Below are positions 1 through 39,908 of a DNA stretch of 40,010 nucleotides, piece after piece. Position 1 is the first letter of the stretch; every line of letters begins with the position of its first letter. The notes below the pieces were generated by a model. The model made no database searches. It had not been told where the DNA came from and saw only the letters and a program-made list of their open reading frames with translations. A program made the translations under genes and the position numbers. The DNA comes from a virus: IMG/VR virus record IMGVR_UViG_3300037189_022718, positions 1 to 40,010 of that record; one strand, 5' to 3'.

Positions 1-87
1 TATTTCAATTCCTACTTTTCCTACATTCCTACATCTACTACTAACTACCTGAAAATCAATTCAATTGAAAACAAAAGCCTGTAGGAA
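1..87. repeat. Terminal direct repeat, left copy
   Basis: These 87 bases are identical to bases 39924-40010. An exact end-to-end repeat of one assembler k-mer length is the usual mark of a circular molecule written out as a linear contig. The repeat therefore probably exists once in the real genome, and the sequence around base 1 is continuous with the end of the helicase gene. A true short terminal repeat in the virion DNA cannot be excluded from sequence alone. Confidence 0.92.
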
Positions 88-144
88 TGCTGCCAAAAAT
101 GTAGGAAACCTGTAGGAAAATGTAGGAATGTAGGAATGTAGGAA
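9..144. repeat. Iteron cluster, candidate replication origin
   Basis: The heptamer GTAGGAA occurs six times on the plus strand (starts 81, 101, 112, 122, 130, 138). Its reverse complement TTCCTAC occurs three times (starts 9, 18, 26), so the two groups face each other across an A/T-rich centre. Another TTCCTAC lies at 39798-39804 inside the end of the helicase gene. The last three plus-strand copies repeat every 8 bp. The cluster lies directly downstream of the primase and helicase genes on the circle and is followed by a very A/T-rich stretch (about 165-248). Repeats next to replication genes are typical of phage origins. An alternative is a multi-site operator for the early genes. Confidence 0.6.
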
Positions 145-248
145 AAACAGAAGTCAAAAATGGAAGGGTCTAGAATTTTTTAAAAAAACACAAAGGTTTT
201 TGCCGATAGGGTAGGGCCAAATCCATTCACTTAAAATTCACTAAAAAA

Positions 249-1334: not shown

Positions 1335-1363
1335 ACAAAAATTCCCCGGACGCTGAACAACTC

Positions 1364-1423
1364 CATGTTGAATGCGCATCCGCCGACATGAATCAACATG
1401 TATCACCGCAAAGACGTTTGCGG
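1364..1423. other. Two hairpins at the left edge of the cassette array
   Basis: The first is a perfect 8-bp inverted repeat, CATGTTGA (1364-1371) with TCAACATG (1393-1400). The second is a 7-bp stem with a four-base loop, CCGCAAA (1406-1412) with TTTGCGG (1417-1423), followed after ten bases by TTTTT. The second could be a terminator for the preceding gene. GTTGAAT at 1367-1373 fits the integron R-box consensus GTTRRRY, and GTTTGCG at 1416-1422 is a weaker fit, so the recombination point of the leftmost cassette may lie here. No complete attC can be folded in this stretch, because the spacers on the two sides are unequal. Confidence 0.5.
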
Positions 1424-1455
1424 AGTGGGGGCATTTTTAAAAACCTATTTCGATC

Positions 1456-1689
1456 ATGGTGCATCCAAACATTGACCTTGACAAACTTATTGAGCAGCTT
1501 GAAAGCATCGGCTTTGAAGCTATCACAAAGCTGCAATTCAGGCGTGGCTTTGTGGATGTTCGGATCGTGAACGGACTTATACCTGACGGCATTGACTTTG
1601 TGCCTGATGTATTTTTTCAGGTAACGGTATGGAATGGGGACAATGAAGGGAAATTCATTTGCCAAATAGATCAACTTTTTATAGACTAA
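1456..1689 (+). CDS. Cassette A protein, unknown function
   Basis: This encodes 77 residues. The predicted fold is a short N-terminal helix followed by beta strands rich in aromatic and acidic residues. I do not recognise the family. The TAA stop sits inside the R'' box of the following attC-like site (GACTAAC), a layout common in integron cassettes where coding sequence runs right up to the recombination site. The leader is T/A-rich with no Shine-Dalgarno sequence, which suits expression in a Bacteroidota host. There is no obvious promoter, so transcription probably reads in from the upstream phage genes. Confidence 0.65.
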   Translation: MVHPNIDLDKLIEQLESIGFEAITKLQFRRGFVDVRIVNGLIPDGIDFVPDVFFQVTVWNGDNEGKFICQIDQLFID

Positions 1690-1748
1690 CTGAGGCATGA
1701 ACGCCGTGCGACTATGTAGGGAGCATGGGCGGCCATGCTGGGTTAGCC
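1684..1748. other. attC: attC-like site A
   Basis: R'' is GACTAAC (1684-1690) and R' is GTTAGCC (1742-1748), with CTAAC pairing to GTTAG. The spacers are TGAG on the left and TGG on the right and do not pair. The inner L boxes GCATG and CATGC pair, then CGCC pairs with GGCG and TGC with GCA around a loop. The left arm carries an extra unpaired A after the L box, like the extrahelical bases that orient attC recognition by IntI. The fold was done by eye. Confidence 0.85.
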
Positions 1749-1774
1749 GAATCCTTAACATTAAAAACATCACA

Positions 1775-2002
1775 ATGATTAATAGAATCAAATCGCTCGA
1801 TTCCGCCGAATTTTTAGGCGCAACTTGGAGTAAAACAGGGTTTAGTATGCACATTCTTGAAATAGGAATGAAACTACGACAAAACCCGAATGACAAAAGC
1901 GACCTATCTAATTATTCAAAAAAGCCGTTATTGTCTATTTCCTTGTACAAAAGGAGATTGCATATCCGAATGCTCTTCTTTATATTTTTCACTATCGGCT
2001 AA
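1775..2002 (+). CDS. Cassette B small protein, possibly frameshifted
   Basis: This reads 75 residues from ATG 1775, the first start clear of the upstream attC. The TAA stop lies in the R'' box of attC B. The first 50 residues look like an ordinary small protein, whereas the last 25 are basic then hydrophobic and less protein-like. At 1918-1924 the codons contain A AAA AAG, the dnaX-type slippery heptamer. A -1 shift there continues 29 codons to a TGA at 2011-2013 and gives a more convincing amphipathic end, total 79 residues. Either programmed frameshifting or a one-base deletion in the A run could explain this. Function is unknown. Confidence 0.5.
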   Translation: MINRIKSLDSAEFLGATWSKTGFSMHILEIGMKLRQNPNDKSDLSNYSKKPLLSISLYKRRLHIRMLFFIFFTIG

Positions 2003-2062
2003 AAGGTGCATGACTGCAAGTGCTGACGCTTAGGAAGTATTGACAGCCATGCAGGGTTAGCA
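1997..2062. other. attC: attC-like site B
   Basis: R'' is GGCTAAA (1997-2003) and R' is GTTAGCA (2056-2062), with CTAA pairing to TTAG. Short unpaired spacers follow, then the L boxes TGCATG and CATGCA pair perfectly. Inside these, CTG pairs with CAG after a one-base mismatch. The R'' last A instead of C makes this the weakest R box of the five. The R'' end TCGGCTAA is the exact reverse complement of the first eight bases of cassette B (TTAGCCGA at 1743). Confidence 0.82.
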
Positions 2063-2075
2063 GCATTCTAATATC

Positions 2076-2789
2076 ATGAAAAAACTCCTCGATGTATACA
2101 GCGGTGCAGGACTTGCGGCAATTGGCTACAAGCAATCCGGTTTTCATGTCACAGGTGTTGACAATGAGAAAAAAACTTGCTACGCTGGTGATACCTGGAT
2201 CCAGGCGGATGCGCTGGAAATATTGGCCGATGTAAATTTCTGCCGTCAATTTGATGCAATTCACGCAAGCCCGCCATGCCAGAAATACAGCCAGTCAACG
2301 GCGATGTTTCGAGCAGCGGGGAAAGTCTATGCTGATTTGATTGAGCCGACCCGCGAAGCACTTGAATTGATAGGGCTGCCATACATAATTGAGAACGTGC
2401 CTACTGCACCGGTTCGGCCTGATATTGTTCTACACGGATGGATGTTCGGCCTCAATGTGATGCGCAAGCGACATTTTGAACTTGGTAATTGGTGGATGAT
2501 GCAACCAGGTGTGAGCAAGCGGATTGGGTCGGTTAAGGAGGGGGATTTTTGTACGATAATAGGGAAACAAGGCTACCGAAAATACAAAGGGTTGCCGAAA
2601 AACTGGAGGCCGAAGTTTGACCAGGGTAGCGGGATAAAAACCTGGCACTTCGCCATGGGAATACCGATTCAATACAAGTTCAAGGATGTGGAAATTTCCG
2701 AAGGCATTCCACCAGCCTACACAGAATACATTGGCGGCTACCTTTCCGAGTACCTGGATCGAGTGGCCACACTTTCACTTGTCGGCTAA
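2076..2789 (+). CDS. Cassette C: short DNA (cytosine-5-)-methyltransferase
   Basis: This encodes 237 residues of the C5-cytosine methyltransferase class, which moves a methyl group from S-adenosylmethionine to cytosine in DNA. Motif I (DVYSGAGLAAIG, residues 6-17) is the AdoMet loop. Motif IV SPPCQ (65-69) holds catalytic Cys68, and motif VI ENV (106-108) is present. It is shorter than typical restriction-modification enzymes (over 300 residues), with little room for a target-recognition domain, like compact phage-encoded versions. No restriction enzyme is adjacent. Its TAA stop lies in the R'' box of attC C, so it was acquired as an integron cassette. The likely role is masking phage DNA from host restriction or altering host methylation; this is inference. 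Confidence 0.85.
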   Translation: MKKLLDVYSGAGLAAIGYKQSGFHVTGVDNEKKTCYAGDTWIQADALEILADVNFCRQFDAIHASPPCQKYSQSTAMFRAAGKVYADLIEPTREALELIGLPYIIENVPTAPVRPDIVLHGWMFGLNVMRKRHFELGNWWMMQPGVSKRIGSVKEGDFCTIIGKQGYRKYKGLPKNWRPKFDQGSGIKTWHFAMGIPIQYKFKDVEISEGIPPAYTEYIGGYLSEYLDRVATLSLVG

Positions 2790-2848
2790 CTTATGCGCCC
2801 ACGACGGGCGCGAGCATAGCGCGGCTGTACGGGGGCGCGGCGTTATGC
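2784..2848. other. attC: attC-like site C
   Basis: R'' is GGCTAAC (2784-2790) and R' is GTTATGC (2842-2848), with TAAC pairing to GTTA. The spacers are TTAT on the left and GGC on the right. The L boxes GCGCC and GGCGC pair, followed by a G/C-rich imperfect stem. The mismatch between the outer bases of R'' and R' is expected, because everything after the G of R' belongs to the next cassette (D). The site is much more G/C-rich than its surroundings. Confidence 0.82.
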
Positions 2849-2878
2849 GGATTTTTAACCCCGGTAATTTTTCATCAA

Positions 2879-3118
2879 ATGACATCTGTTGAAACTAAAC
2901 AAACAGAAAGTGGAGGTTGGATATGTTGTTGCACTCATAACGGGTATGACTACTGGGAGGCAGGGGATACAGTTCGAGAGGCACGAAGTAGATTAGTGAC
3001 AAGATTGAAAATAGATCGTTCAGAATTAAAGTTTGAGCGAAAAAGAATATATAAACACAAAGCAAGGCATCCTGAACCGCAAGTCCAATATGCTCGGAAT
3101 CGAATAGATAACCTATAA
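2879..3118 (+). CDS. Cassette D small protein, unknown function
   Basis: This encodes 79 residues. It has a cysteine cluster (ICCC, near residue 15), an aromatic patch and a strongly basic, charged C-terminal half that is probably helical. This could suit nucleic-acid binding, but no family is recognised. Its leader (TTTTTAACC, then TAATTTTTCATCAAA running into the ATG) closely matches the leader of the native phage gene at 34819, although the proteins are unrelated. An opposite-strand reading frame at 2895-3146 overlaps it. I prefer the plus strand because cassette genes normally point toward their attC. Confidence 0.6.
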   Translation: MTSVETKQTESGGWICCCTHNGYDYWEAGDTVREARSRLVTRLKIDRSELKFERKRIYKHKARHPEPQVQYARNRIDNL

Positions 3119-3123
3119 TTCTC

Positions 3124-3210
3124 GCATAACGTTGGCACTCACGCACACCGCCGCCCGCGTTGGCTTTGAGTTAGGCTTTGGCGGAGGTTGGCGGGAGTGC
3201 GTTGTTCTGC
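3124..3210. other. attC: attC-like site D
   Basis: At 87 bp this is the longest site of the array. R'' is GCATAAC (3124-3130) and R' is GTTCTGC (3204-3210). The L boxes GCACTC and GAGTGC pair perfectly, CGC pairs with GCG and CCGCC pairs with GGCGG further in. The spacers are GTTG and GTT. The R'' end CGCATAA is the exact reverse complement of the first seven bases of cassette D (TTATGCG at 2843). A second GTT at 3201 could shift the cut point three bases left, but the match of cassette E to its own R'' supports 3204. Confidence 0.83.
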
Positions 3211-3229
3211 ACATTATTTACTATTCAAT

Positions 3230-4048
3230 ATGGCACGTCTTATATCTTTTTCGGGTGGTCGGTCGTCGGCAATGATGTTGAAAATCTTGCTTGACAACGG
3301 TTTGTTGCAGCCCGACGATTACATACTTTTTGCGAACACGGGCAAGGAACGCCCCGAAACGCTTGATTTTGTCCACGAGGTTGAAACCCGTTGGAACGTG
3401 CCGATTATTTGGATTGAAGGCACGTTCTGCGAATACGATTTGAGCGAGGAAACGATGGTTTCTTCGGTCGGGTTTCGGGTCGTGGATTATTCAACGGCGG
3501 CGCGGCACGGCGAACCGTTCGCGGAAATGATTGATTGGATAAATTGTGGGCGCGTCCCGTCGCGGAACGCTCGTTTTTGCACGAAATATTTGAAAATCGT
3601 GCCGATGCAACGATTTTTGGAAAGCATTGGCATCGCTGAATTTGATACCGTGATGGGCATCCGCTTTGACGAACCGAACCGCTACCGAAAATATAAGGGC
3701 GACGGCTCGTTTCCACTCGTTGATTTTAAAATTACCGAGGCGGACGTTTTTCGTTTTTGGTCGGCTCAAAACTTCGACCTGAATTTGAAGCAATACGAGG
3801 GCAACTGCGATTTGTGCCACCTCAAAAGCCTTAAAAAAATCAAAACGATTATCGCCGAGCAAGGCGAAAAAGTGGCGGATTGGTGGATTGAGCAAGAGAA
3901 AAAAACGAACAGCACGTTTTTTTCGGACGGCTTGGATTTTTCTACTTTGGTTGAAATTGCAACCAACCGCAAGTTTTCGAGGGCTTTGGACGTGCGAAGT
4001 TTGAAAGAACACGACTTGTTTTCAATCTCCTGTTTTTGCGGGGATTGA
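3230..4048 (+). CDS. Cassette E: PAPS-reductase-family PP-loop protein
   Basis: This encodes 272 residues. ATG 3230 places the PP-loop motif SFSGGRSS (residues 5-12) at the normal N-terminal position; an upstream TTG at 3188 would lie in the attC and is rejected. The PP-loop binds the adenylyl group in phosphoadenosine-phosphosulfate reductases and relatives. Conserved-looking cysteines follow: one in RFCTKYLK, a CDLC pair and a terminal CFC, suggesting an Fe-S or Zn site as in thiolation-type members. Codon use favours GCG/GAA and differs from neighbouring phage genes, consistent with transfer. Possible roles are sulfur metabolism, nucleic-acid thiolation or another PP-loop reaction; the sequence does not decide. 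Confidence 0.82.
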   Translation: MARLISFSGGRSSAMMLKILLDNGLLQPDDYILFANTGKERPETLDFVHEVETRWNVPIIWIEGTFCEYDLSEETMVSSVGFRVVDYSTAARHGEPFAEMIDWINCGRVPSRNARFCTKYLKIVPMQRFLESIGIAEFDTVMGIRFDEPNRYRKYKGDGSFPLVDFKITEADVFRFWSAQNFDLNLKQYEGNCDLCHLKSLKKIKTIIAEQGEKVADWWIEQEKKTNSTFFSDGLDFSTLVEIATNRKFSRALDVRSLKEHDLFSISCFCGD

Positions 4049-4074
4049 TACTTATTATTTTGATTTTTAATTGT

Positions 4075-4139
4075 GCAGAACTCAAAGCCCAACGAAGTCC
4101 ACCCGCATAGGGTGGATTCTCGTTGGGCAGCAGTTAGCC
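4075..4139. other. attC: attC-like site E, right end of the array
   Basis: This is the best-folded site. R'' is GCAGAAC (4075-4081) and R' is GTTAGCC (4133-4139). After spacers TCAAA and AGCA, the L boxes GCCCAACGA and TCGTTGGGC pair over 9 bp. An AG/TTC bulge then leaves one extra base on one arm, followed by a 7-bp stem TCCACCC/GGGTGGA and a five-base loop. The R'' end TGTGCAGAA is the exact reverse complement of the first nine bases of cassette E (TTCTGCACA at 3205). Sequence after 4133 should be the native phage flank. Confidence 0.9.
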
Positions 4140-4188: not shown

Positions 4189-4674
4189 ATGAAAAAGGCC
4201 CAACTCATCCGGCAATACTTCGAAACCCACACGCTAGGCATCCTAACAGCCCTGGACGACAAAGGCAACGCCACCTTCCAATGCCAAATCCTAGAGCTCC
4301 CATGGAAGGACAACGAACGCCAAATCAGCTGCATTCCAGAGGGTATCTACCCCGTAAAAGAGCGCCGTACCGACAAGTTTGGCCGTCATTACCACATTCT
4401 TAATGTGCCGGATCGGGATTACATCCTGCAGCATCCCGGCAATTATACCGCTCAGATCAGAGGCTGCCAGCTTACCGGATCCAAATTCACTAACCTCAAT
4501 GTAGACGCCATTCCAGACATCACAGCGTCCCGTAAAACGCTGGATGTACTCCTCAAATCCCTGGGCAAAGAATACACCCTATACATCGGCAGCTTCGAAG
4601 CCCCTACCCATCCGCACACCATTTCACCGGCTAAATACTGGGCAGATCAGCTTCAAAAACCAACCCCCGATTAA
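4189..4674 (+). CDS. DUF5675-type phage protein
   Basis: This encodes 161 residues. The central signature (ELPWKDN, then SCIPEGIYPV, then a VPDR..IL.HPGN block and a conserved GC) matches what I know of the DUF5675 family, found in phages and prophages and not biochemically defined. It sometimes sits near lysis or tail genes, so a cell-wall or virion-associated role is possible but unproven. It is the first native gene right of the cassette array, and its leader is unusually C-rich (4134-4188). Four bases separate it from the next gene, so they are probably co-transcribed. Confidence 0.8.
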   Translation: MKKAQLIRQYFETHTLGILTALDDKGNATFQCQILELPWKDNERQISCIPEGIYPVKERRTDKFGRHYHILNVPDRDYILQHPGNYTAQIRGCQLTGSKFTNLNVDAIPDITASRKTLDVLLKSLGKEYTLYIGSFEAPTHPHTISPAKYWADQLQKPTPD

Positions 4675-6241: not shown

Positions 6242-7956
6242 AGTGGGCTATACAACTTCCTTCGGGCGAATTTCTGGATACGCCGCTTGATTTGGACCTT
6301 CAGTTCGAGTTCAACAACCAGGTATTCAGCACAAGCGATACGGCATTGTTGCCCGGATCCTACTCATTCCCCATTGAAGTGCCGCTCACCGCAAGGATGA
6401 AAACCCTATTCGGATTCCCGGATAGGGTAGACCGAGCCACCTTATTTCAGAACATAGAAAATGTGTGGGTATATGCCGCAGGCATTCGGCTATTCTCCGG
6501 CACACTGAAAATTTTGAAGGCTCGCAAAGGATCCGTTTCAATCTCCATTTTTGCGGATTTTCTGGGCTCTTTGAAAAAAGCCAATTTGGCGGACATAGAT
6601 TTCGGAGCCAACGTAGCAGCTGGAGGCACCAGTTTAGAAGCCTGGGCTGCGCACATGCTCGACACTGCGGAAAATCCGGAAGATTACAATCACATTTTCT
6701 TCCCTGTATACTTTACAGGCGGCGATACCGGCTGGGTGAATAAGTGGAAAGCGGAAGCTGAAACCTTTGACATTGGTAACACAGAGGCAGTGGCTCCATT
6801 CGTGAAAATATCCTACATACTGGATCGTATTTTCTCGGCTGCAGATGGTTATTCCATCATAAATGATTGGCAGACGGACATTGAAATGTTCCGAAGGTAC
6901 TTGTTCCACCAGGCAGACGTGCGCGTGCTGGGTGTAAATCCCGCCGTAGCGCCTACGTTTCCGGCAAACTACGCTCTTAAAGACCATGTGCCCCAAGCCA
7001 CCATTCCAAAGTTCCTTCGTAGCCTGTGCGCCCAGAATTGCCTGGGCATATTCACCAATCCGTTCAATAGGACCATTCGTATTGGCCCATTACAATCGGC
7101 CATCACCAATTCAGCCATTCAGGACTGGACAACGTATGCCCTGTATGATCCAATCATTGAACCAGATACTGCCAACATTGGCTACTTAAATTATGCGCAA
7201 CCCTACGATGGTGTTCCGGATAATTTCCCGCCAGTTGAAACCGTAGAGGTGGTGTACAATACCCGGGACGATTTCAACCTCGACTGGCAAAACCTACCCA
7301 CTGGCTTCGCATACATCGAAGCCGGTGAAACCATGATGGAAGTCCGGGATGAAGGTGCAGTAGTAACATTTCAGCGAGGCCATCCATTATTCAGAGGGGT
7401 AGGGGTGGCGAGTGAAACCGGGATCATTCCTGAACTGGTACCATTTCGGGCCATAGAGTTTGGGAATGAAGGAGTTTACTACGTTTTTCACGAAGGCGAA
7501 GCCAGCGTATATGACAACGGCTCGGGATCTTATGCCTGGCAGCAGAAGACATGCCCACTCACTGTGCTACAATTCAGGGGGATACAAGTTCAAAAGTCAG
7601 GCGAACCAGCCTCGCCGCTCGCATGCAACTCCGTTTGGAAATCCTACAACACCGGTGGAGTCAAATCAAAGATTGTGGCTGGTGGCGTTGATCTGGCAGA
7701 CAGCGCTCATAGCCTGAATTACTTTGGAGAGTATGGACTGGGGACACAGGCCTGGGGGGCATGGTTTGAAATGCTCAAGAATGGGAAGCATGTAACGCAA
7801 TCATTCATTATACCGATCACCAAATTAACCGGGTTTTCATTTGGAGATAAAATTCGCGTTGGAAACATGGATTTCTTTGCCAAAAAACTCCGTGTACAAA
7901 AACTACTCGATCGAGGCAGAGTACTCGTAGAGGCTTCTATGGTATCTGTAATCTAA
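6238..7956 (+). CDS. Large virion protein, probable tail hub/tip component
   Basis: This encodes 572 residues and starts inside the previous stop (ATGA-type overlap). The sequence is beta-rich throughout, with many aromatic and proline-bounded segments and no signal peptide. The N-terminal part (residues 1-110) alternates short hydrophobic strands as in hub-domain proteins, and the C-terminal 60 residues again look like strands. Its length and place (tail-tip, then lipoprotein, then fibres) resemble the hub or baseplate proteins of Bacteroidota siphoviruses. This is inference from context; no catalytic motif is seen. Confidence 0.75.
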   Translation: MKWAIQLPSGEFLDTPLDLDLQFEFNNQVFSTSDTALLPGSYSFPIEVPLTARMKTLFGFPDRVDRATLFQNIENVWVYAAGIRLFSGTLKILKARKGSVSISIFADFLGSLKKANLADIDFGANVAAGGTSLEAWAAHMLDTAENPEDYNHIFFPVYFTGGDTGWVNKWKAEAETFDIGNTEAVAPFVKISYILDRIFSAADGYSIINDWQTDIEMFRRYLFHQADVRVLGVNPAVAPTFPANYALKDHVPQATIPKFLRSLCAQNCLGIFTNPFNRTIRIGPLQSAITNSAIQDWTTYALYDPIIEPDTANIGYLNYAQPYDGVPDNFPPVETVEVVYNTRDDFNLDWQNLPTGFAYIEAGETMMEVRDEGAVVTFQRGHPLFRGVGVASETGIIPELVPFRAIEFGNEGVYYVFHEGEASVYDNGSGSYAWQQKTCPLTVLQFRGIQVQKSGEPASPLACNSVWKSYNTGGVKSKIVAGGVDLADSAHSLNYFGEYGLGTQAWGAWFEMLKNGKHVTQSFIIPITKLTGFSFGDKIRVGNMDFFAKKLRVQKLLDRGRVLVEASMVSVI

Positions 7957-12437: not shown

Positions 12438-13874
12438 ATGGCCACTACAAACGGAAATAGAAAAATATTAGATTTGAAAAGATGGGAGCAGGTTAGCCCG
12501 GCTCCTTCGCCAACTGGTTCCGGGGCTTTTATAGCCTCATCAAGACACTTTAGGCAGCAACAATTGTATATCAACAATGCTACAACTGCTTGGTTATACA
12601 ACCCCAGTGAAGATGGATGGGTAGCATTGCCTGGCCCTTCGCTTGCCGGAGTATTTCAGGGCGGCGCAGCGGGTGTTGCAGGGTCGTGGTCAACGGGCAC
12701 GACAGTAGCGGCATCTTCGCTTACTGCCACTGGTGGAACTACTTCAACAATCATCACAAACCAAACGCTTGCCAGATCCTTGGCAGGCTATTCGGTACAC
12801 ATACTTTCAGGCCCCAATGCGGGTGTAACGCTTCCTATTGTTTCAAACACAATAGGCGCAACCGCTACCATTACGGTAGCAGCGCAAGCAACCGCTTTCA
12901 CGGCTTCGACAGTGTACCGATTATGTACCCCGGTTTGGTATGTAGTTAGCGCAGGTAGCCATGCTTCCGGGTCGTTCAAAAAATACGACCTAGCAACGAA
13001 CACATGGACGACGTTGGCAATCACTGGACTTCCTGCATCGTTTGGCACCGATGGCAAATTGGTTGGCACGCCAAGTTGGTTGAATACCGATTACAAAGCA
13101 TTTGCAACGGGTACGGCAACATCGGGGGGAGCATCTACCCTTACCAATTCGGCGAAGACGTGGACAACTAACCAGTGGACAAATTCCCAAATCCGCATTG
13201 TATCGGGTACGGGTGCGGGTCAGATTCGTACCATTGCGTCTAACACGGGGACGGTAATAACAACAAGTGCCGCATGGACTACACAACCCGACGCTACCTC
13301 TGTGTATTCCATTGAAGGGAATGACGATTTTCTGTACTATATTGGCAACAACGCAGTTGCCATGTACCGCTACACAATTTCAGGAAATACTTGGACTACC
13401 CTGTCTCCAACTGCGGCAAGGAGTGCAGCTCCAGGCCTTGGAATGTCCGCACATTGGATTCACAGTGAAACCGATACTAGATGGACAAATGAAAATTCCA
13501 TTATTAATGGACAGCGCATTTATTCATTCAGGGGTAATAGCGTGCAACACCTTGATTACTATGATATTGCCGCTAATACGTGGGTGTCTATAGTGACGTA
13601 TGCACCTGCACAGGAAACATTTGCAACGGGAACAAAGTACACCTATTTGAATGATAAAATTTACATTCAAAAGGACGCCACAAACAGATGGTTTGAGTTT
13701 GACATTGCGGAGCAAAACATGACGGGATGGACAACAATGGCATTGACCCAAAGCACCGCGGTTGCAGGTGATACGGTGTTTGACGTGACGTATTATGACG
13801 GAGCAACCGAGATTCATTATGTCTATATGTTGATGAACACCTCTACACTCATGTACCGCCAAATGGTAATTTAA
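12438..13874 (+). CDS. Kelch-like tail fibre/receptor-binding protein
   Basis: This encodes 478 residues with several kelch-style blades (KYDLATNTWTTLAITGLP, YRYTISGNTWTTLSPTAARS, YYDIAANTWVS), the signature of beta-propellers. Two copies of an inserted beta domain (about residues 84-165 and 217-292), each with a GPNAG or GTGAG turn, interrupt the propeller. Such proteins act at the virion surface in host recognition. It starts two bases after the previous stop and shares one base with the next gene. This is the most likely adsorption determinant of the module, though receptor specificity cannot be read. Confidence 0.75.
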   Translation: MATTNGNRKILDLKRWEQVSPAPSPTGSGAFIASSRHFRQQQLYINNATTAWLYNPSEDGWVALPGPSLAGVFQGGAAGVAGSWSTGTTVAASSLTATGGTTSTIITNQTLARSLAGYSVHILSGPNAGVTLPIVSNTIGATATITVAAQATAFTASTVYRLCTPVWYVVSAGSHASGSFKKYDLATNTWTTLAITGLPASFGTDGKLVGTPSWLNTDYKAFATGTATSGGASTLTNSAKTWTTNQWTNSQIRIVSGTGAGQIRTIASNTGTVITTSAAWTTQPDATSVYSIEGNDDFLYYIGNNAVAMYRYTISGNTWTTLSPTAARSAAPGLGMSAHWIHSETDTRWTNENSIINGQRIYSFRGNSVQHLDYYDIAANTWVSIVTYAPAQETFATGTKYTYLNDKIYIQKDATNRWFEFDIAEQNMTGWTTMALTQSTAVAGDTVFDVTYYDGATEIHYVYMLMNTSTLMYRQMVI

Positions 13875-14138: not shown

Positions 14139-15836
14139 ATGAAATTCAAGTTTTTTCTATTTCTGTTTTTCGCGTTCACCTGGGCAGCTCAAGCCCAAAC
14201 CTCCGACACAAAAGATATCCAAATCGCCAAGCAAAAACTTCGTGTCGGTTCAGATAACAGCAAGTTCTTCACGTCTACTACAGAGACGATCAACATCGGC
14301 AGCACCCATCGGCAGCTGCCGACGGCGAAGGCTGTATGGGATGCTATTGTTGCCGGCGGCGGTGGCGGCGGGGGTGGGCACATCATCCTGGATGATGATA
14401 CGGTGATGGATCAGCGGGAAGGGCTAAACTTCATAAGCACTCCCACGGTCTCAATTACAGCATCAGACGATGCTGCGAACGATGAAACCGAAATCAGGCT
14501 AATTGTGCCCAATGATGGCATTGGGTCCAATCAGATATCAAGTGGAGCCGTAGGAACCTCAGAAATTGCAGATGGATCTGTCACCTATGCGAAATTACAA
14601 AATGTTGCAACCAATCGAGTTCTAGGACGCGTATCAGCAGGGGCAGGAGAAGTACAGGAGCTTGGGCCGGGATCCTCAATGGTATTTTCAGCAGTGGGGG
14701 GCATTGCAAGGGCAGCACTTACAGGCGATGTTACAGCGGCACTGGATGACAACGCTACCACGATCGCAAACAATGCCGTCAATTCTGCAAAAATTGCAGA
14801 TGGATCAGTTGCCCTGGCTGATATGGCCAATATGGCCACCTCCTCGCTGATCTATAGAAAAACCGCTGGTACTGGACCTCCGGAGGTGAATACATTGGCC
14901 ACATTAAAAACAGATCTGGGCATCACCGGCAATGAAATTCTGAACGGTGGAAATACAACAGGCGCAGCCCTAACCATCGGGACAAATGACAATCAGAATT
15001 TAATTTTTGAAACCAACAATACTGCACGCCTTACCGTTGCATCCGCCTCTATTACAACCGGAGGCAATTACACCATTGGGAATAGTGCAAACACCATATC
15101 GCTAAGCTCAACCTCCACATCTAACTCGGCAATAGCATTGAATGCCAGTAACGTATCGGGTAGTGTAAAAGTAGGAGCATCTACCGCATATACCCATACG
15201 ACCGGAGTGAAAACCAAAATGAACTTTAGCGGGGAATCTTTCACAGCTTCTTCGGGATCGGGAGTGTTTACTGGCTTGTTATTCAATGACACATACGACC
15301 TGACGGGGACAGCGTCCGGCTTGCAAAGTTCAATTGATATTAACCCTGCTCTTACCAACCTGGTTGCCGCCACTTATGCCGCTATTAATATACAAGCCAA
15401 CAACGCGTCGGCTATAGGCATTAATCAGACGGGTTCTAATACCCGCAATATTTTCAGAGGCAAAACAGCCATTGGATCTACAACCGGACCCAGTGAGCAA
15501 CTGGAGGTTACGGGGAATGCGACAGTTGCCGGGAAACTAGCGTCAACGTCCGAGGCCATTACGCTGGGGGCATCCGCCACAACACTGGCGATCAACAGGA
15601 ATGTCGTAAAGCTAACGGGCAATGGCACCAATGTGCTAGCAACAATTACTGGGGGCATATCTGGACAAATTCTGACCATTATTTTCGTTGATGCGCTGGT
15701 GAGCATTACTGATACCGGCACTGGAGCAGCAAATACCGTAAACCTATCCGCAGCATTTACATCTACGGCAAATGATACGATTACACTTGTATCAGATGGA
15801 ACCTCTTGGTTTGAAATTGACCGTTCTGTAAACTAA
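14139..15836 (+). CDS. Large fibre-like protein with N-terminal signal peptide
   Basis: This encodes 565 residues. The first 20 (MKFKFFLFLFFAFTWAAQAQ) form a textbook Sec signal peptide with an AQA-Q cleavage site, unusual for a virion fibre. A polyglycine hinge (about residues 69-77), an ILDDDTVMDQREGLNF segment and SEIADGSVTYAKL repeats, twice, are typical of phage tail fibre stalks. The C-terminal 300 residues are Thr/Ser/Asn-rich beta repeats. It may be exported to the envelope and assembled there, or act as a host-surface adhesin. It has its own transcript after a strong terminator. Confidence 0.75.
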   Translation: MKFKFFLFLFFAFTWAAQAQTSDTKDIQIAKQKLRVGSDNSKFFTSTTETINIGSTHRQLPTAKAVWDAIVAGGGGGGGGHIILDDDTVMDQREGLNFISTPTVSITASDDAANDETEIRLIVPNDGIGSNQISSGAVGTSEIADGSVTYAKLQNVATNRVLGRVSAGAGEVQELGPGSSMVFSAVGGIARAALTGDVTAALDDNATTIANNAVNSAKIADGSVALADMANMATSSLIYRKTAGTGPPEVNTLATLKTDLGITGNEILNGGNTTGAALTIGTNDNQNLIFETNNTARLTVASASITTGGNYTIGNSANTISLSSTSTSNSAIALNASNVSGSVKVGASTAYTHTTGVKTKMNFSGESFTASSGSGVFTGLLFNDTYDLTGTASGLQSSIDINPALTNLVAATYAAINIQANNASAIGINQTGSNTRNIFRGKTAIGSTTGPSEQLEVTGNATVAGKLASTSEAITLGASATTLAINRNVVKLTGNGTNVLATITGGISGQILTIIFVDALVSITDTGTGAANTVNLSAAFTSTANDTITLVSDGTSWFEIDRSVN

Positions 15837-30914: not shown

Positions 30915-31961
30915 ATGGATTTAGTTTTCAAAGTCATCACCGCCCCTACTCCAACGGTACCACAGGTACAGGACACTACATTTCAGGAGCACTACTCCGG
31001 CGTTAACCGATCCATGGCATGGGATGAAATTACGCCTGGGATCAGGCAGGCCACCGAGCAGTACGTGTTGGATTTTATTGGCGAGGATTTCTACAATGAC
31101 CTGGCAGCGATGTACCAGGCAGGCACTACGCTGTCTGATGAGCAGAAAAAAACGCTCGAACTGCTGCAAGACTGCATCGCCAACTATGCCATTTACCACA
31201 TTTTGCCCGAGAAACGGAGCATATTGGAGAGCCTTGGAGTGGTAGAGAATACTCCGCAGGGTGGATCAAGCCCCGCAGCGTACCCGATTTACAAGGAGAA
31301 GCGGAGGGCAGCCCTTGAAAATGGAGACAAATTTCTGGATCGGCTGCTCAGTTATATGGAAAAACAGGTAACCGCAGGGGATACAGGGTTTGATATGTGG
31401 AAGGAATCCAGCGCATACACATTGAAAACCTGTGACTTTTTCCGGCATACCAGCGAGCTGGATGAGTACCTGAACATTCAGAACAGCCGCAGATCCTTCA
31501 TCTCGCTGACCCGATACATGAAGCAAATCGAGGAAGATGTGATTCGGCCAATCATTTGCGACGACCTGTATGCGCTCGCCGTGGCTACTACTCCACTGGA
31601 AGCAGAGGCCAAACTTTTGCCGATGATCAAAAAAGCGGTAGCCTATTTGGGTGCAGCTGAGGCTATTCCTCACCACCGAATCGTGATCGATGGCGATGGT
31701 TTCCGTGTCGTCAGCCAGACAGATGGCTGGGATGATCGTCGGAACATGACCAACAATGTCCATGAAACTGCTATTCAAGCACTGGCCACACGGTGCCAGG
31801 AGCAAGGCCGGAGGGCTGTAGCGAAGCTTGTCCAGTTCCTTGAGGATAATATTGCTGACTATCCTGACTATGAGAACTCAACTTGCCGGACAAAGCCTGT
31901 GGATAAGGCACACAGCATTCGGCAGGCGAGTGATGGGATTGGTGCGGTGGGGTTTTTCTAA
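30915..31961 (+). CDS. Probable head-tail joining (neck) protein, DUF6712-like
   Basis: This encodes 348 residues, mostly helical. An early segment (WDEITPGIRQATEQYVLDFIG) and a duplicated helical architecture resemble a family of Bacteroidota-phage proteins that I believe is DUF6712; the name is from memory and not certain. Its isolated position after the terminase and behind its own gap suggests a late structural protein in a separate transcript. It converges with the integrase gene, overlapping its stop by about three bases. Confidence 0.7.
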   Translation: MDLVFKVITAPTPTVPQVQDTTFQEHYSGVNRSMAWDEITPGIRQATEQYVLDFIGEDFYNDLAAMYQAGTTLSDEQKKTLELLQDCIANYAIYHILPEKRSILESLGVVENTPQGGSSPAAYPIYKEKRRAALENGDKFLDRLLSYMEKQVTAGDTGFDMWKESSAYTLKTCDFFRHTSELDEYLNIQNSRRSFISLTRYMKQIEEDVIRPIICDDLYALAVATTPLEAEAKLLPMIKKAVAYLGAAEAIPHHRIVIDGDGFRVVSQTDGWDDRRNMTNNVHETAIQALATRCQEQGRRAVAKLVQFLEDNIADYPDYENSTCRTKPVDKAHSIRQASDGIGAVGFF

Positions 31962-33160
31962 AATTCCCCAGGTAAAGCAAATATAACCCCAGAGAAATCC
32001 CGAACATCCTTATTCACCACGCCAAGCGACTGCAAATACCGCTGCGTGGTGGACAAGGATTTGTGCCGCAAATGCTTCTGGATCGCCACAATATCCATAC
32101 CGGACTTAACCATGGCGATCGCTCCAGTATCCTTCCAGCTGTAAGCTGAATACCCTTCAATGGTAGCCAGCATCCCAGCCTTCAACATCACGTGCAGCAT
32201 TTCTCTGAATCGATCGCTGATTGTATTCCGGCCAACGCACTGCTTTGGGTGCGGCTTCAAGCCCAAACCAAACACCAGGTAAGAGGCCGGGACCTTATCC
32301 AGTTCAAACGCCCGAAGCGTCGGGACCACACTGGTGGGAATGGTGATGAAGGCCCGATCCTTGTTCTTAGTCTGGTCCCCACCCATGATGATCAGTCCAC
32401 GATCCAGGTCAATGTCCCGGATCCGCAACCTCCGCAGCTCACTCAGTCGCAATCCACAGTGACTGATCAGCACGATGGCCAGATATACCATCCGGTTATG
32501 GTGGTACACGTACCTGGCAATGGTCGTGGAATCCCCCTGCTCGAATGGATGCCGTAGTTTCTCCTCCTCTTTTCGTGGTTTATGGTTGGCAAAAGGGTTG
32601 TCTTTGATGTACTCCCGCTCATGAAGCTCATAGAACAACGACCGCATGTTGATGATGTAGTTGTTATAAGTGCGGTTTGACACCGGCTTACCCTTCCGGT
32701 TTTTCTTTGTCAGCAACACATCATCCAAAAAAAGCTTCGCCTTTGGCCGGTCAAAGGCGGCAATGCACAGCCCTTCCCACTTCTGGCCGCGTATCCACTC
32801 CGTAAATATGTTGTTGAATGAATTGTAAGTGATCCGAGTATGCTCCCGGTCAGACTGAAGCTTGAACTTCAGCGCCACTTGCATAGCATCCAGTATGTTG
32901 GTGCTACCCAGCACGGATACTACCTGCTCTTTTTTTCTGGAGACATCCGACCACTCCTTCATTTTCTCCTGAAGGATGAACTGCGCACGCTCTTCCCGGC
33001 GCACTGGATCGGTAATGAAGGAAGCTCGATTCAGGTCGAATGTTTTGCGGACCCGAATCCGGTCTGTACTACCTGGTACAAACTCCTCCCATTCAATAAG
33101 CCATTTCCAACCTTTTAGAATTCGTGGAGGCTTGAGGTAAGCGAACTGAGGTATGGACAT
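31958..33160 (-). CDS. int: Tyrosine recombinase, phage integrase
   Basis: This encodes 400 residues, minus strand, from ATG 33160; the frame is open to 33289 but the extension is not integrase-like. It has an N-terminal arm-binding-like domain, a SAM-like middle, and a C-terminal catalytic domain with Arg238 (in GLRLSELRRL) and nucleophile Tyr375 (in TTQRYLQS). The usual HxxR box is YSWK (residues 340-343), a variant seen in Bacteroidota integrases. It inserts the phage at attB using the attP candidate just upstream. It is not an IntI: I see no IntI-specific extra domain, and it is coupled to phage lysogeny genes. Confidence 0.9.
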   Translation of the reverse strand: MSIPQFAYLKPPRILKGWKWLIEWEEFVPGSTDRIRVRKTFDLNRASFITDPVRREERAQFILQEKMKEWSDVSRKKEQVVSVLGSTNILDAMQVALKFKLQSDREHTRITYNSFNNIFTEWIRGQKWEGLCIAAFDRPKAKLFLDDVLLTKKNRKGKPVSNRTYNNYIINMRSLFYELHEREYIKDNPFANHKPRKEEEKLRHPFEQGDSTTIARYVYHHNRMVYLAIVLISHCGLRLSELRRLRIRDIDLDRGLIIMGGDQTKNKDRAFITIPTSVVPTLRAFELDKVPASYLVFGLGLKPHPKQCVGRNTISDRFREMLHVMLKAGMLATIEGYSAYSWKDTGAIAMVKSGMDIVAIQKHLRHKSLSTTQRYLQSLGVVNKDVRDFSGVIFALPGEF

Positions 33161-33187
33161 TTTTTTTTTGGACAAGCTGTGTACAAC

Positions 33188-33389
33188 TTGCCAAAACATT
33201 GCCAATGTGCTTAATGCTAAAATACCGCGCAACTCTTTGTAAATCAAAGAATTAACGCGGTATTTAGTGCGGGAAGCGAGAAGGCGCACCCCTCACGATA
33301 CCCCCAAAAACCACGATTCAACCCACCAACAACCACCCTAAACCCCTCAAAATCGCAGCCCCAGCAACATTCTGGCAATCTTCTGGCAA
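33188..33389. other. attP: Candidate attP with paired arm sites
   Basis: Two TTGCCA hexamers (33188-33193, 33199-33204) have an 11-base period. Two reverse-complement copies TGGCAA (33373-33378, 33384-33389) have the same 11-base period, facing them. They flank about 170 bases between the integrase start and the next gene and enclose strong inverted repeats. Paired, phased arm sites around a core are the layout of tyrosine-integrase attP sites. The core itself cannot be fixed without the host attB. Confidence 0.6.
33220..33265. repeat. Long perfect inverted repeat near the integrase
   Basis: AAATACCGCG (33220-33229) pairs perfectly with CGCGGTATTT (33256-33265). An inner CTTTG/CAAAG stem makes a two-tier cruciform. 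A smaller palindrome ACATTG-C-CAATGT lies at 33197-33209. The structure sits between the paired arm sites and could be the integrase core or a bidirectional transcription stop. It lacks the T tract of a terminator on either strand. Confidence 0.6.
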
Positions 33390-33395
33390 CGTTAT

Positions 33396-33920
33396 TTAGT
33401 TCATTATCAATGCATAATACACCCTACCCCCAAACTCAAGACCACTTTGCCGACCATCAAATTCCGGAAGCAAGTCCGAAAATGTACGGCGCAAACGACC
33501 CGAAATCATAAACCGACCAGATGACCATCCCAACTCACCACAAAGCCCAATGCTGGATCCATTAGCTGCATCAGCCGGCGCATTCAAAACTGTATACACC
33601 CCAACCCCACCCCACAATCCAGTCTTAATCCATTGAGCCTTCGGCAAAAACTCCAGGCTAAAAGCACCGTTCCTGAATGATTGGCCTTCATACGTAGTCC
33701 AAACTCCGCTGGTTTTGAAGCCCATCACATTATCCTGCCAGTCAATGAAGCCTCCAACGGTTATCTCGCTGGATACTGGAGCTGATTGAATATTGTCTCC
33801 ATACACCTTTGTCCCTCCACCCCCAGAAAAAATTCCGGATCGTGCCACAAATTGAGCCAACCCGCTCAAAGGAACGCTAAGCATTACAATCAATACAAGT
33901 ACCTGTTTCATATCATTCAT
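33396..33920 (-). CDS. Secreted beta-rich protein, possible lysogenic conversion factor
   Basis: This encodes 174 residues, minus strand, with ATG 33920 (or 33911). A signal peptide (about residues 4-22, ending GLA-Q) is followed by glycine-rich alternating strands (TVGGFIDWQ, GVGVYTVLN, LEFGGRVYYA), the pattern of small outer-membrane beta-barrels. It lies between integrase and repressor, the region expressed in the lysogen. It therefore may change the host surface or block superinfection. The gene starts inside the end of the repressor gene (8-base overlap), so the two are probably co-expressed in lysogeny. No known family. Confidence 0.72.
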   Translation of the reverse strand: MNDMKQVLVLIVMLSVPLSGLAQFVARSGIFSGGGGTKVYGDNIQSAPVSSEITVGGFIDWQDNVMGFKTSGVWTTYEGQSFRNGAFSLEFLPKAQWIKTGLWGGVGVYTVLNAPADAANGSSIGLCGELGWSSGRFMISGRLRRTFSDLLPEFDGRQSGLEFGGRVYYALIMN

Positions 33921-34329
33921 CTTGATTTAGTGACATCCTGCTTTCCCAATCAGCCTTCCACTTCTCCAACTCCTCCACACGCTGGATCAAATCCCGAAGA
34001 CCTGCCAGCGGATCATCCTTGTAGTCTTTTTCTAAGTCGTCCAGGGTGCGGACTTGAGATGGCTCAAATTGAGATGTTTCTACTATGTCCACTCCATTAC
34101 ACATTGGGCCTTCACCTGAAAAAATCCACGATTCACGGAGTTCAGGATAACGTGATGTAATTTTATTTACAAAAATTCGAGTGATTGGCTTAGCTCCACT
34201 TAGCGTCGAAGAGACCAGTGCTTGAGATACTCCAACCTCTTTGGCAAAGCGTTTACCATTGATTTTAAGCGAGTTAACAAAGTCTTCCAATCTAAGACCT
34301 TCTTCAATTTGCTTTTCTTGTTTTGTCAT
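33913..34329 (-). CDS. HTH repressor, probable lysogeny regulator
   Basis: This encodes 138 residues, minus strand. Residues about 15-60 form an XRE-type helix-turn-helix (FAKEVGVSQALVSSTLSG). It is followed by a PELRESWIFSGEGPM segment, a known signature of Bacteroidota XRE phage repressors. A charged coiled tail completes it. It is divergent from the early gene at 34433 and its start overlaps an inverted repeat (TTGTC/GACAA), suggesting autoregulation. The expected role is the CI-like repressor that maintains lysogeny. Confidence 0.85.
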   Translation of the reverse strand: MTKQEKQIEEGLRLEDFVNSLKINGKRFAKEVGVSQALVSSTLSGAKPITRIFVNKITSRYPELRESWIFSGEGPMCNGVDIVETSQFEPSQVRTLDDLEKDYKDDPLAGLRDLIQRVEELEKWKADWESRMSLNQDE

Positions 34330-37098: not shown

Positions 37099-38004
37099 AT
37101 GCTACAAAACATCGAAATCTCGGCATTCAAATCTGCTACGAGTACCGAACCCACGACGGTTTCACTATCGGCATTCCTGACAAGTACACGCCACCGAGAG
37201 AAAATACTTGCGCTCCGCGCTGAATCCGAGAAAAAGAAGCGAGATGAATTGAAGAAAACCCTGCCAGCTGCCACCATTTCCGGAACATTCATTCGCAGAG
37301 CTGCCGGTCAAATACAATCGTACAACGGTCTGGTTTGTCTTGATTTCGACGGTGCCGACAACCCTGCAGTTACACCCGCAGAGATGAAGTACATTCTTAG
37401 CGCATTCCCGGAAGTGGCCTATGCAGCAGTCAGCGTCGGTGGGGCAGGGGTGTTTGCAATCGTGCCCACCAACAATCGGGACCCGACCAGGCACGCAGCT
37501 GTAGTGGATCTGCTCGGCATGGCCACCAAAGCGCACGGCCTAGTATACGATCGTGCCTGCAAGGATGTCAGCCGCCTGCGCTTTGTATCCTACGATCCGG
37601 ATGCTTTCTGGAATCAATCGCCAAAGGAATTCGATACAGACTTCCTTTTCCAGATTCAACAGCCACCAACCAATTTCAGACCACCCCGGGCAATGGTATT
37701 CAGACAGCCACCAGAAAAACCGGCCAATGATACCCGCAGCAAAGTAGAAGCCTATATCCAGGCATTGGAAGGGAGCTGCCGCGATGTGACAGACAACTAT
37801 GACGACTGGCTAAAAATAGGCTTCGCTCTGGCCAGTGAGTTTGGAAATGGGGGCGAGGATCTGTTCCATAGGGTCAGCCAGTTCAATCCAAAATACAATC
37901 CTCAGGAAGCGGCCAAAAAGTATGAAAACGCCTTGAAAAATGGGAAGTCCGTCAAAATCGGGACCTTCTTCAAAATCCTTCACGATCAAAACATCCGGCT
38001 ATGA
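37099..38004 (+). CDS. VirE-N/BT4734-type primase with PriCT-like C-terminus
   Basis: This encodes 301 residues. LDFDGADN (residues 81-88, metal-binding Asp82 and Asp84) and CKDVSRLRFVSYDP (154-167) are the hallmarks of the primase-polymerase-like BT4734/VirE-N family of Bacteroidota mobile elements. Residues about 213-300 resemble the PriCT-2 helical domain (YDDWLKIGFALASEF) that follows such primases. It would lay RNA or DNA primers for phage replication. Its stop overlaps the start of the helicase gene by four bases, so the two are coupled. Confidence 0.85.
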   Translation: MLQNIEISAFKSATSTEPTTVSLSAFLTSTRHREKILALRAESEKKKRDELKKTLPAATISGTFIRRAAGQIQSYNGLVCLDFDGADNPAVTPAEMKYILSAFPEVAYAAVSVGGAGVFAIVPTNNRDPTRHAAVVDLLGMATKAHGLVYDRACKDVSRLRFVSYDPDAFWNQSPKEFDTDFLFQIQQPPTNFRPPRAMVFRQPPEKPANDTRSKVEAYIQALEGSCRDVTDNYDDWLKIGFALASEFGNGGEDLFHRVSQFNPKYNPQEAAKKYENALKNGKSVKIGTFFKILHDQNIRL

Positions 38005-39908
38005 AATCACTGACCGACACAGCGAAAGAACTTCTTTCGAAACCTGCTGAGGCCGGAATACAAAACCAACCATCCAACCCTGATACCACCCAGCAAGAGA
38101 TAGATGCCTTTGACAATGATGACCTAAAGTTCCTGAAAAGCCACCTGCGCAGACTTGGAGTAGATGCAGATGAAGCCATTGACTACGGATTCTATGAGTA
38201 CCGCAACCGATACTGGATGCTTCGCCGTGGAGACACCTTCGAGAGTGTCAGCAACTTTACCATGAAGGTGCTATTCCTGATCGTTGGAGCCAACCCGAAG
38301 CGTATCGTTGAGATCAAGAACGTACATGGTAAAGCCACCACTTTGGATTTCACCATCGAGGATCTGATCAGCATCGAAAAGTTCAAGGCCAGGGTAGAAG
38401 GGCAGGGAAATTTCCTGTTCGAAGGAAAGGCAACCGATCTTGCACGGATCAAAAACAGCCTGTTCAACAAAGAAAAGGCATCCGTGGAGATCAGCCGGCT
38501 CGGCCAGTACAAGGATCGATTCTTCGCCTGGGCCAATGGCATCTACGATGGCAAAGACTTCTACCACGTGGACGACAAAGGCATGGTCGAAGTGGGCAAA
38601 GAGCACTACTACATTCCAGTGTTCGGTAGCACCAGAGATGGCGACGATGAAGACCTGCGCAACTACCGACGGTTTCTGCACCGCGAAGACGCTACCACCT
38701 TCACCGAATGGGCAGAACAATTCATCCGGGTATATGGCGAAAATGGTCGCCTGGGCATTGGGTTCTTTTTCTTCTCCGTGTTCTCTGACATCATTTTTGA
38801 ACGCACCAAGGCATCCCCCATGCTGTTCCTGTTTGGACAGCGCGGATCCGGAAAGGGCACCATGGCCAACAGCCTGATGGCGCTGTTCGGCACCCCACAG
38901 GATCCGCTGATGCTCGGAGGAGCAAGCACCGTGGTTGGCTTCATGCGGAAGCTCGGGCAGTTCTCCAACGCCATTGTCTGGCTGGATGAATACAAGAATG
39001 ACATTGGGGAAAAGAAGATTGAATCCCTGAAAAACATCTGGGATAGGGTAGGCTACGAGCGTGGCGTAAAGGATTCATCCAACAAAACCCAGACCACGCC
39101 CGTAACATCCAGCGCAATCCTGTCAGGTCAGGAGATCCCAAACGTAGAGCCAGCATTATTCTCCCGAACGGTGCTGTGCGAATTCAGAGCCATGCAGCGA
39201 TCACAGCGCGAAGTAGACGACTTCAACAAGCTGCGCATCATGGAAGATGCCGGCATCACCAACGTCACACTCCAGGTACTTGCCCAGCGCGAACACATCA
39301 AGGCCGAGATATTCAAGGCATACGGCGAAGTTTCCACTGCATTGCGTGCCGCATTGGCCGAACGGGAAGTCATTGAGCGCCAGATCATCAACTACGGCAT
39401 CCTGTGTGCCACCATCATGGTGCTCGAAAAGCGCATGAAGCTACCCTTCAACAGCACCGAGTTTATTCAGCAGTGCGAGACCTATATCCTGCGCCAGAAT
39501 GATATGATGAAGCAGAGCAATGAAGTGCAGCAATTCTTCGAGATGGTGCAGTTCCTGCTGCAAAATGGTTTGATCAGCGGCGAGAAAGATATCATCATCA
39601 CAAAGGGCCTGCTAAAAGTACGGATGGTCAGCATTATTGGCCTTTACAGGGAGCACGCCAGACGGCAGGGGATGCGCCCAATGGACCGCGGAACCCTGAT
39701 GAATTACATCCAAAACTCGGAAGCATACCGGAAAGAAGAGTCCAAATTGTCATCTCACCGATTCCCCGGCCTACAAAATCCTACATCCTGCACAGTTTTC
39801 CTACAGGCCGAAATCAAGCGTTTGTACGGGGTTGACTTTGCCGACAATTTGCAAAACGTTGAAGATCAGGAACAAACGCCACAAGCGCCCCCCCAAGATG
39901 TCTTTTAA
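38001..39908 (+). CDS. SF3/D5-type replicative helicase
   Basis: This encodes 635 residues. Walker A GQRGSGKGT (279-287) and Walker B AIVWLDEY (324-331) with downstream SSAILSGQEIP (sensor-like) match the virus D5/P4-type helicase class. The N-terminal 240 residues are a DUF5906-like leader domain and the C-terminal 200 residues are helical. It unwinds DNA at the phage origin. The end of the gene contains an iteron copy (39798-39804), and the iteron cluster follows immediately on the circle, consistent with origin recognition nearby. Confidence 0.88.
   Translation: MKSLTDTAKELLSKPAEAGIQNQPSNPDTTQQEIDAFDNDDLKFLKSHLRRLGVDADEAIDYGFYEYRNRYWMLRRGDTFESVSNFTMKVLFLIVGANPKRIVEIKNVHGKATTLDFTIEDLISIEKFKARVEGQGNFLFEGKATDLARIKNSLFNKEKASVEISRLGQYKDRFFAWANGIYDGKDFYHVDDKGMVEVGKEHYYIPVFGSTRDGDDEDLRNYRRFLHREDATTFTEWAEQFIRVYGENGRLGIGFFFFSVFSDIIFERTKASPMLFLFGQRGSGKGTMANSLMALFGTPQDPLMLGGASTVVGFMRKLGQFSNAIVWLDEYKNDIGEKKIESLKNIWDRVGYERGVKDSSNKTQTTPVTSSAILSGQEIPNVEPALFSRTVLCEFRAMQRSQREVDDFNKLRIMEDAGITNVTLQVLAQREHIKAEIFKAYGEVSTALRAALAEREVIERQIINYGILCATIMVLEKRMKLPFNSTEFIQQCETYILRQNDMMKQSNEVQQFFEMVQFLLQNGLISGEKDIIITKGLLKVRMVSIIGLYREHARRQGMRPMDRGTLMNYIQNSEAYRKEESKLSSHRFPGLQNPTSCTVFLQAEIKRLYGVDFADNLQNVEDQEQTPQAPPQDVF

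Follow-up and report, generated by a model that had tools for sequence, protein, structure and literature searches.

Cassette arrays without an integrase are known from phage genomes as clusters of attC sites lacking integron integrases (CALINs): Qi et al. 2023 (PMC9892861) reported 17 such clusters from phages, among them Polaribacter phage P12002L, which carries methyltransferase cassettes, and found that 5 of 6 phage attC sites recombine with IntI1. Here we analyze a 40,010-nucleotide stretch of virus DNA (IMG/VR record IMGVR_UViG_3300037189_022718, positions 1 to 40,010; hereafter, the window) that carries an array of five attC-like hairpin sites, W1 to W5, interspersed with genes. The array resembles the phage CALINs (PMC9892861), for example, those of Tetrasphaera phage TJE1 and P12002L, in combining attC-like sites and cassettes with the lack of an integrase, in its methyltransferase cargo and in the proposed supply of an integrase in trans, shown there for IntI1. 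Given that integrase-less phage cassette clusters have been reported, they are not new, and an earlier interpretation of the window from its letters alone (hereafter, the sequence-only reading), which saw in the phage array a new vehicle for cassette spread, was mistaken on this point. What appears to be new is the reversed gene-to-site polarity: the genes in the window are oriented against their sites, whereas those of TJE1 are co-oriented. The window also differs from the phage CALINs in its site type, which appears specific to Chitinophagales and was not found in TJE1 or P12002L by model scans, and in that the locus keeps an array with changed content across several related phages. We found no description of reversed phage cassette arrays, or of the Chitinophagales host arrays analyzed below, in the open-access literature.

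With sedentary chromosomal integrons (Vibrio, Xanthomonas) and class 1 integrons, the array shares tandem cassettes, hairpins with R and L boxes, spacers, extrahelical bases and complementarity of the R boxes across the gene, but the spacers here are mostly 4/5 rather than 5/6, the extra base lies about 12–13 nt from the core, and the host recombinase lacks the IntI-specific insertion. That insertion has been stated to be essential for integron function, and an integron-like subgroup without a fully conserved insertion has been delineated (Smyshlyaev et al. 2021, PMC8138268). The host recombinases described below resemble this subgroup (PMC8138268) in lacking the insertion and in scoring 201–215 bits, below the 265-bit cut-off, but differ in that they adjoin hairpin cassette arrays. 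Spirochaete integrons carry intI in reverse orientation (PMC9668308). The recombinase gene of our host arrays similarly points along the cassettes, the difference being that the spirochaete integrase is a true IntI. Treponema denticola provides an example of such a reversed intI, and the gene-to-site polarity of spirochaete integrons is generally taken to be normal.

On balance, we consider it probable that the window holds a phage-borne integron-like cassette array with sites of a host type and reversed genes, moved by a host recombinase in trans.

Sites and gene polarity of the array

The five sites are 65–87 nt long, lie within 2.5 kb and have ends of the form NNNTAAC/GTTNNNN, unpaired spacers and an extrahelical base. 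A simple scanner for R and L boxes produces too much noise to establish individual sites by itself, and we therefore relied on three covariance models: a class-1-type attC model built from 8 canonical sites, a phage model trained on phage sites including W3, and a host model built from 20 Chitinophagales chromosomal sites, which were found via the phage model, with zero phage sequences in the training set. The locus is laid out as follows, with G001, L012, L013 and L053 denoting related phages.

1337..1432, no strand: conserved element with a pair of small hairpins, located left of the array and not attC-like; 95.9% identity in G001
1456..1689, plus: 77-aa gene left of the leftmost site, W1, with its stop codon within the W1 R box; G001 has another gene (106 aa)
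1684..1748, minus: site W1, attC-like hairpin that belongs to the gene at its right; host model 61.4 bits, E 2.4e-14; phage model 65.4 bits
1775..2002, plus: 75-aa gene of the W1 cassette (open reading frame), no assigned function; TAA stop in the W2 R box
1997..2062, minus: site W2; 82% identity to the host chromosomal site L122:4651-4716; host model 45.8 bits
2076..2789, plus: C5-cytosine DNA methyltransferase-like gene (237 aa) of the W2 cassette; phrog_363, E 2.5e-25; cassette also in L013 and L053
2784..2848, minus: site W3; phage model 60.1 bits; no host model match
2879..3118, plus: 79-aa gene of the W3 cassette (open reading frame), no assigned function
3124..3210, minus: site W4; host model 32.0 bits, E 9.8e-6
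3230..4048, plus: PAPS-reductase-like/SspD-like gene (272 aa) of the W4 cassette; PF01507, E 9.9e-8; phrog_424, E 7.5e-49; PADLOC SspD, 1.5e-12
4075..4139, minus: site W5; no gene after it in the window, precedes a 171-aa gene in G001; host model 35.8 bits
4142..4148, minus: bare GTTGGGG core at the right end of the array, read from the sequence; possibly the attI-side junction
4189..4674, plus: DUF5675 protein, conserved right flank of the locus; PF18925, E 2.2e-25; present in G001 and L012

The host model recovers W1, W2, W4 and W5 (E 2.4e-14 to 9.8e-6), each on the minus strand, with no further match at E<=1 in the window; its scores for phage sites on the minus strand reach 65 bits. The phage model matches all five sites, with W3, itself part of the training set, at about 60 bits. 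The class-1-type model yields no match in the window with default filters and at most 10.2 bits with the filters off, and because this small model scores about 10 bits at most, the sites are not classical attC; for sites of the kind seen in the window, the model proved too narrow. Thus, the five folds with R and L boxes, unpaired spacers and extrahelical bases that the sequence-only reading had described are confirmed in their coordinates by the host model (4 of 5) and by covariation (see below), and the covariance-model check that it proposed came out in favor with the host and phage models (4 of 5 and 5 of 5 sites) but not with the class-1-type model at default filters. The range that it claimed, from 1368, stands for the sites but not for the hairpins of the 1337–1432 element that fall within it; considered as a sixth site, this element was rejected because neither the phage nor the host model matches it.

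A scan against Rfam gave nothing at the gathering threshold, named phages yielded no blastn match to the array, and viral contigs contained no occurrence of a degenerate DNA pattern that describes W5-like sites. No such sites were present around 34 PAPS-reductase relatives in viral contigs or in the phages with more distant primase relatives, including L065.

Every site in the window is on the minus strand and every array gene on the plus strand. The strand of the sites is supported by several comparisons. All 17 control attC sites (from class 1 integrons, Vibrio, Shewanella, TJE1 and one Bacteroidia integron) carry the extra bases in the top-strand 5′ arm, and 12 of 13 phage sites, read in the direction of the genes, carry them in the 3′ arm. 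Compared with host sites, each of the 13 phage sites gives its better match on the minus strand; W2 and the corresponding L013 site (site B) show 82–83% identity to a site of genome G677 in the minus orientation; and in L013 and L053, as well as at the top-scoring site of L012, the canonical attC model favors the minus strand. Of 51 host-array genes that precede a site, 49 share its orientation and 2 are anti-oriented. The phage arrays include 10 sites with an anti-oriented gene and 3 apparent co-oriented cases, which we set aside as antisense shadow open reading frames of the plus-strand genes for DUF5675, an Acb2-like protein and a 127-aa protein. With one extra site counted by hand, gene orientation is 49:2 in hosts versus 0:11 in phages (Fisher p=1.5e-10), and in five related phages, each gene with a site is anti-oriented to it. 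Inversion of a whole array turns genes and sites together and therefore cannot account for this pattern; it is within the individual cassettes that the gene is reversed.

Site asymmetry, exchange breakpoints and the host comparison all place the sites on the minus strand, and therefore the mobile unit is a site with its downstream gene, not a gene with the following attC, as the sequence-only reading had it. The array contains the at least two attC sites within a few kb that characterize a CALIN, and it lacks the arrangement of a gene followed by a co-oriented attC. That it is nevertheless an ordinary CALIN in gene-then-attC order, one that originated in a host integron and depends on a classical IntI for its movement, like those of other phages, seems unlikely to us: CALINs are documented in phages, a hairpin follows each gene, and one genome of the same order, G152, holds a class-1-type integron with a true IntI, but site asymmetry, matching to host sites and breakpoints indicate the opposite polarity, the class-1-type model misses the window sites at default settings, and the published phage CALIN of TJE1 has genes co-oriented with its sites.

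Cassette exchange and conservation of the sites

The content of the array locus has turned over in G001, L012 and L013, in support of the exchangeable phage genes envisaged in the sequence-only reading. The genome of G001 (IMGVR_UViG_3300034107_001095) aligns collinearly with the window at about 77–93% identity and carries other genes at the array locus. The similarity at W5 begins exactly at the left AAC (window position 4079), so that W5 was retained, with everything leftward, up to the conserved 1337–1432 element, exchanged. The methyltransferase cassette is present in three phages (window, L013 and L053) at 96% protein identity; the site before the methyltransferase gene is nearly letter-for-letter the same in the window and L013, and no two of the three phages have the same site after it, the break falling at GGCTAA|C. 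The exchange breakpoints thus fall on the left R box of the plus strand (in the methyltransferase unit, and at W5/R1 between the window and G001). Of the 12 phage genes checked, 8 or 9 end with a TAA stop codon that is part of an NNNTAAC core (in a site or in a bare core at the right end of an array), and therefore exchange at the core would keep the stop codon and the reading frame intact.

Across 12 phage sites (those of the window and of four other phages), the L helix is paired in 92.7% of the cells and 7 of 8 pairs have changed on both sides; in whole-structure shuffles, 0 of 500 reached the observed percentage paired or the observed covariation score. Double compensatory changes are also seen in the homologous sites of bacterial arrays. 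In the phage arrays, the variable ends of the R boxes are complementary across the gene at 26 of 28 positions versus 21 of 40 within the site (permutation p=0.01), as must be the case for the two ends of one circular cassette, and host arrays obey the identical rule (p<5e-5).

These observations bear on the possibility that the array is a fossil, captured once and now shuffled solely by homologous recombination between phages, with the hairpins kept as intergenic terminators or by descent. The phages lack a recombinase of the appropriate kind, the crossover-side R box of W2 is mutated, and L012 has degenerate sites, all of which would fit; however, the breakpoints are sharp, fall exactly at the core AAC and involve different partners, the R boxes are complementary across genes, closely related phages hold different genes and different sites at one locus, and covariation in the L helix goes together with conserved unpaired features, so that we regard this scenario as improbable, and marginally more so than an ordinary CALIN.

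The five attC-like sites are real, beyond chance. The scores that a simple scanner gives to other hairpins in the window, and the commonness of GC-rich palindromic intergenic stems in phages, might lend some credit to the idea that the hairpins are accidental or serve as rho-independent terminators among small phage genes. That idea is highly implausible in view of the conserved GTT/AAC cores and of the double compensatory changes seen when homologous sites of bacterial arrays are compared, and for 4 of the 5 sites it is refuted by the independent host-derived model: in 444 kb, which include the rest of the window phage and other phages, the remaining matches of this model below E=1 lie only in the arrays of the related phages L013 and L053.

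Among the relatives, L012 contains two degenerate site-like hairpins (15373–15415 and 16184–16235) with right ends GGGATAACATTTC rather than the GTT core. A further site in L053 (104–188, minus strand) is weak with the phage model, reaches 40.6 bits with the host model and precedes an HTH (helix-turn-helix)/ImmA-IrrE-like gene (426–1487).

Chromosomal arrays and a candidate recombinase

When 299 genomes of one Chitinophagales-type order were surveyed with the phage model, 15 proved to have sites, often clustered, and in a phylum-wide draw of 247 genomes, the only match was the already known center genome G677 (0 of the 246 others). In type, the phage sites are the same hairpins as those of the Chitinophagales chromosomal arrays. 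An IntI-like tyrosine recombinase adjoins arrays of this type in three genomes: in G663, it is located about 260 bp from three tandem gene-less sites, and in G677 and G621, within a few kb of the arrays. It scores 201–215 bits against TIGR02249 (cut-off 265), in two separate stretches owing to the absence of the IntI-specific insertion, forms a clade of its own apart from true IntI in the tree, and is encoded co-directionally with the host cassettes. Sites are present in 7 of the 10 genomes that bear its closest relatives versus 15 of 299 overall (p=1.8e-8). True IntI above the TIGR02249 cut-off is present in 1 of 395 genomes of the class, namely G152 (Bacteroidia; L084:3295-4542), where it scores 428 bits and comprises 415 aa with an N-terminal extension, and where a canonical attC is also present.

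No IntI was found in the 40,010-bp phage genome, nor an intI with the IntI-specific insertion beside the array, as a complete integron would have; the sole tyrosine recombinase found is the phage integrase, at 47 bits against the TIGR02249 cut-off of 265. This supports the sequence-only reading in its view of an integron-like cassette array without IntI in a temperate phage of Bacteroidota type. We also considered the phage's own integrase as the cassette recombinase and rejected it, given its different clade in the tree and its weak IntI match. Because the host recombinase adjoins and co-occurs with arrays of the same type, true IntI is rare and the phage integrase is not an IntI, the insertion-less host enzyme is likely to be the one that acts in trans on the phage sites. 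The earlier suggestion of an IntI provided in trans therefore needs amendment: a host IntI proper is found in 1 of 395 genomes, but arrays of the same type are accompanied by an IntI-like recombinase without the insertion.

In the mechanism we propose, each cassette would consist of a site and then a plus-strand gene pointing against it, the reverse of chromosomal arrays; the host IntI-like recombinase without the classical insertion would fold the site and cut at the plus-strand NNNTA^AC, and cassettes would be inserted, deleted or exchanged during lysogeny or infection. Because the resident sites are on the minus strand and recombination keeps the polarity of sites, only reversed-gene cassettes would end up co-linear with the plus-strand genes of the phage, so that a phage-specific reversed pool would be selected. 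The sites, their polarity, the turnover of the cassettes, the site type in common with hosts and the association of the arrays with a recombinase are shown by the comparisons above; the enzyme in trans, the timing, the transcription of the cassettes and their benefit to the phage are what we infer here.

Several points weigh against this reading. Cassette movement is deduced from sequences, and no recombination event was observed. The crossover-side R box of W2 itself is mutated (TTTAGCC for GTTAGCC), so that this site may be inactive, and because, in addition, W3 is missed by the host-only model, part of the array may have decayed. The 77-aa gene left of W1 is replaced in G001 without a recognizable preceding site, so that some exchange in this region appears to need another route. 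Close relatives are few (G001, L012 and L013), L053 being known only through the shared methyltransferase cassette. No host cassette was found that shares a gene with the phage cassettes, and a candidate methyltransferase cassette in host chromosomes was rejected, the only chromosomal relative having 52% identity and no site nearby. Finally, no prophage of the window phage was found in any sequenced host.

A broader proposition, which we offer tentatively and rate at a little under an even chance, is that Chitinophagales possess an integron-like system missed by standard tools, with an insertion-less relative of IntI and hairpin sites with a conserved center, and that this phage lineage maintains its own reversed, partly counter-defense cassette pool moved by the host enzyme. 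Such a system would be chromosomal and belong to Bacteroidota, where IntegronFinder reported almost no complete integrons, and its recombinase would lack a part described as essential for integron function. Until now, phage cassettes were known only from scattered examples; here, several related phages carry them at one locus, with varied content and an orientation opposite to that of host arrays, and whether phages keep a cassette pool of their own becomes directly testable.

In G663, tandem gene-less sites (L125:17164-17434, 12947-13235 and 6737-7025) recur at an exact spacing of 101 bp, a pattern that would fit a build-up of empty cassettes or duplicated sites near the host recombinase.

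Cargo, phage genome and likely host

Besides the genes listed above, the cassettes of related phages encode an Acb2/Tad1 hairpin-domain protein (PF24729, E 1.3e-10), an HTH/ImmA-IrrE-like protein and proteins without assigned function. Members of the Acb2/Tad1 family counter the CBASS (cyclic oligonucleotide-based antiphage signaling system) and Thoeris defenses. The cargo (methyltransferase, Acb2/Tad1-like, SspD/PAPS-like) suggests an accessory, partly counter-defense role, and the methyltransferase and Acb2/Tad1-like genes suggest modular trade of counter-defense genes among phages. The Acb2/Tad1-like gene is inside a cassette with a site in L013 (14525–14743), and the homolog in L012 (14080–14290) is outside recognizable sites.

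The window is the full 40,010-bp IMG/VR record and has an exact 87-bp direct terminal repeat at its ends, which makes a complete, circular genome very probable. The encoded proteins include a large terminase (TerL), a tape-measure protein, a primase, a tyrosine integrase and a repressor-like regulator; by this combination of terminase, tail, integrase and repressor genes in a complete genome, it appears to be that of a temperate tailed phage. The features relevant here are the following.

31958..33289, minus: phage tyrosine integrase, not IntI; phrog_1, E 3.2e-30; TIGR02249 47 bits (cut-off 265); placement in the tree
33913..34329, minus: repressor-like regulator (temperate phage); phrog_2328, E 7.8e-6
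38001..39908, plus: primase/helicase, left flank of the array locus on the circular genome; the query used for finding related phages

Relatives of the primase are found in prophage-like loci of Sphingobacterium, Pedobacter and Chitinophagales genomes, and also in phages of Porphyromonas, Flavobacterium and Cellulophaga, so that a Bacteroidota host is well supported. As no prophage was found in sequenced hosts, the host order, likely Chitinophagales, is deduced from the site type and distant primase relatives.

The 1337–1432 element directly precedes the gene that is swapped between the window and G001, and one of its hairpins shows an A-T to C-G compensatory change between the two (ACATG..CATGT to ACCTG..CAGGT). 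Just after the primase gene, the window (1–150), L012 (11910–12050), L013 (11225–11380) and L065 (11950–12100) contain dense CCTACA/TGTAGG repeats, possibly replication-origin iterons, in place of which G001 carries TGTTGACA repeats.

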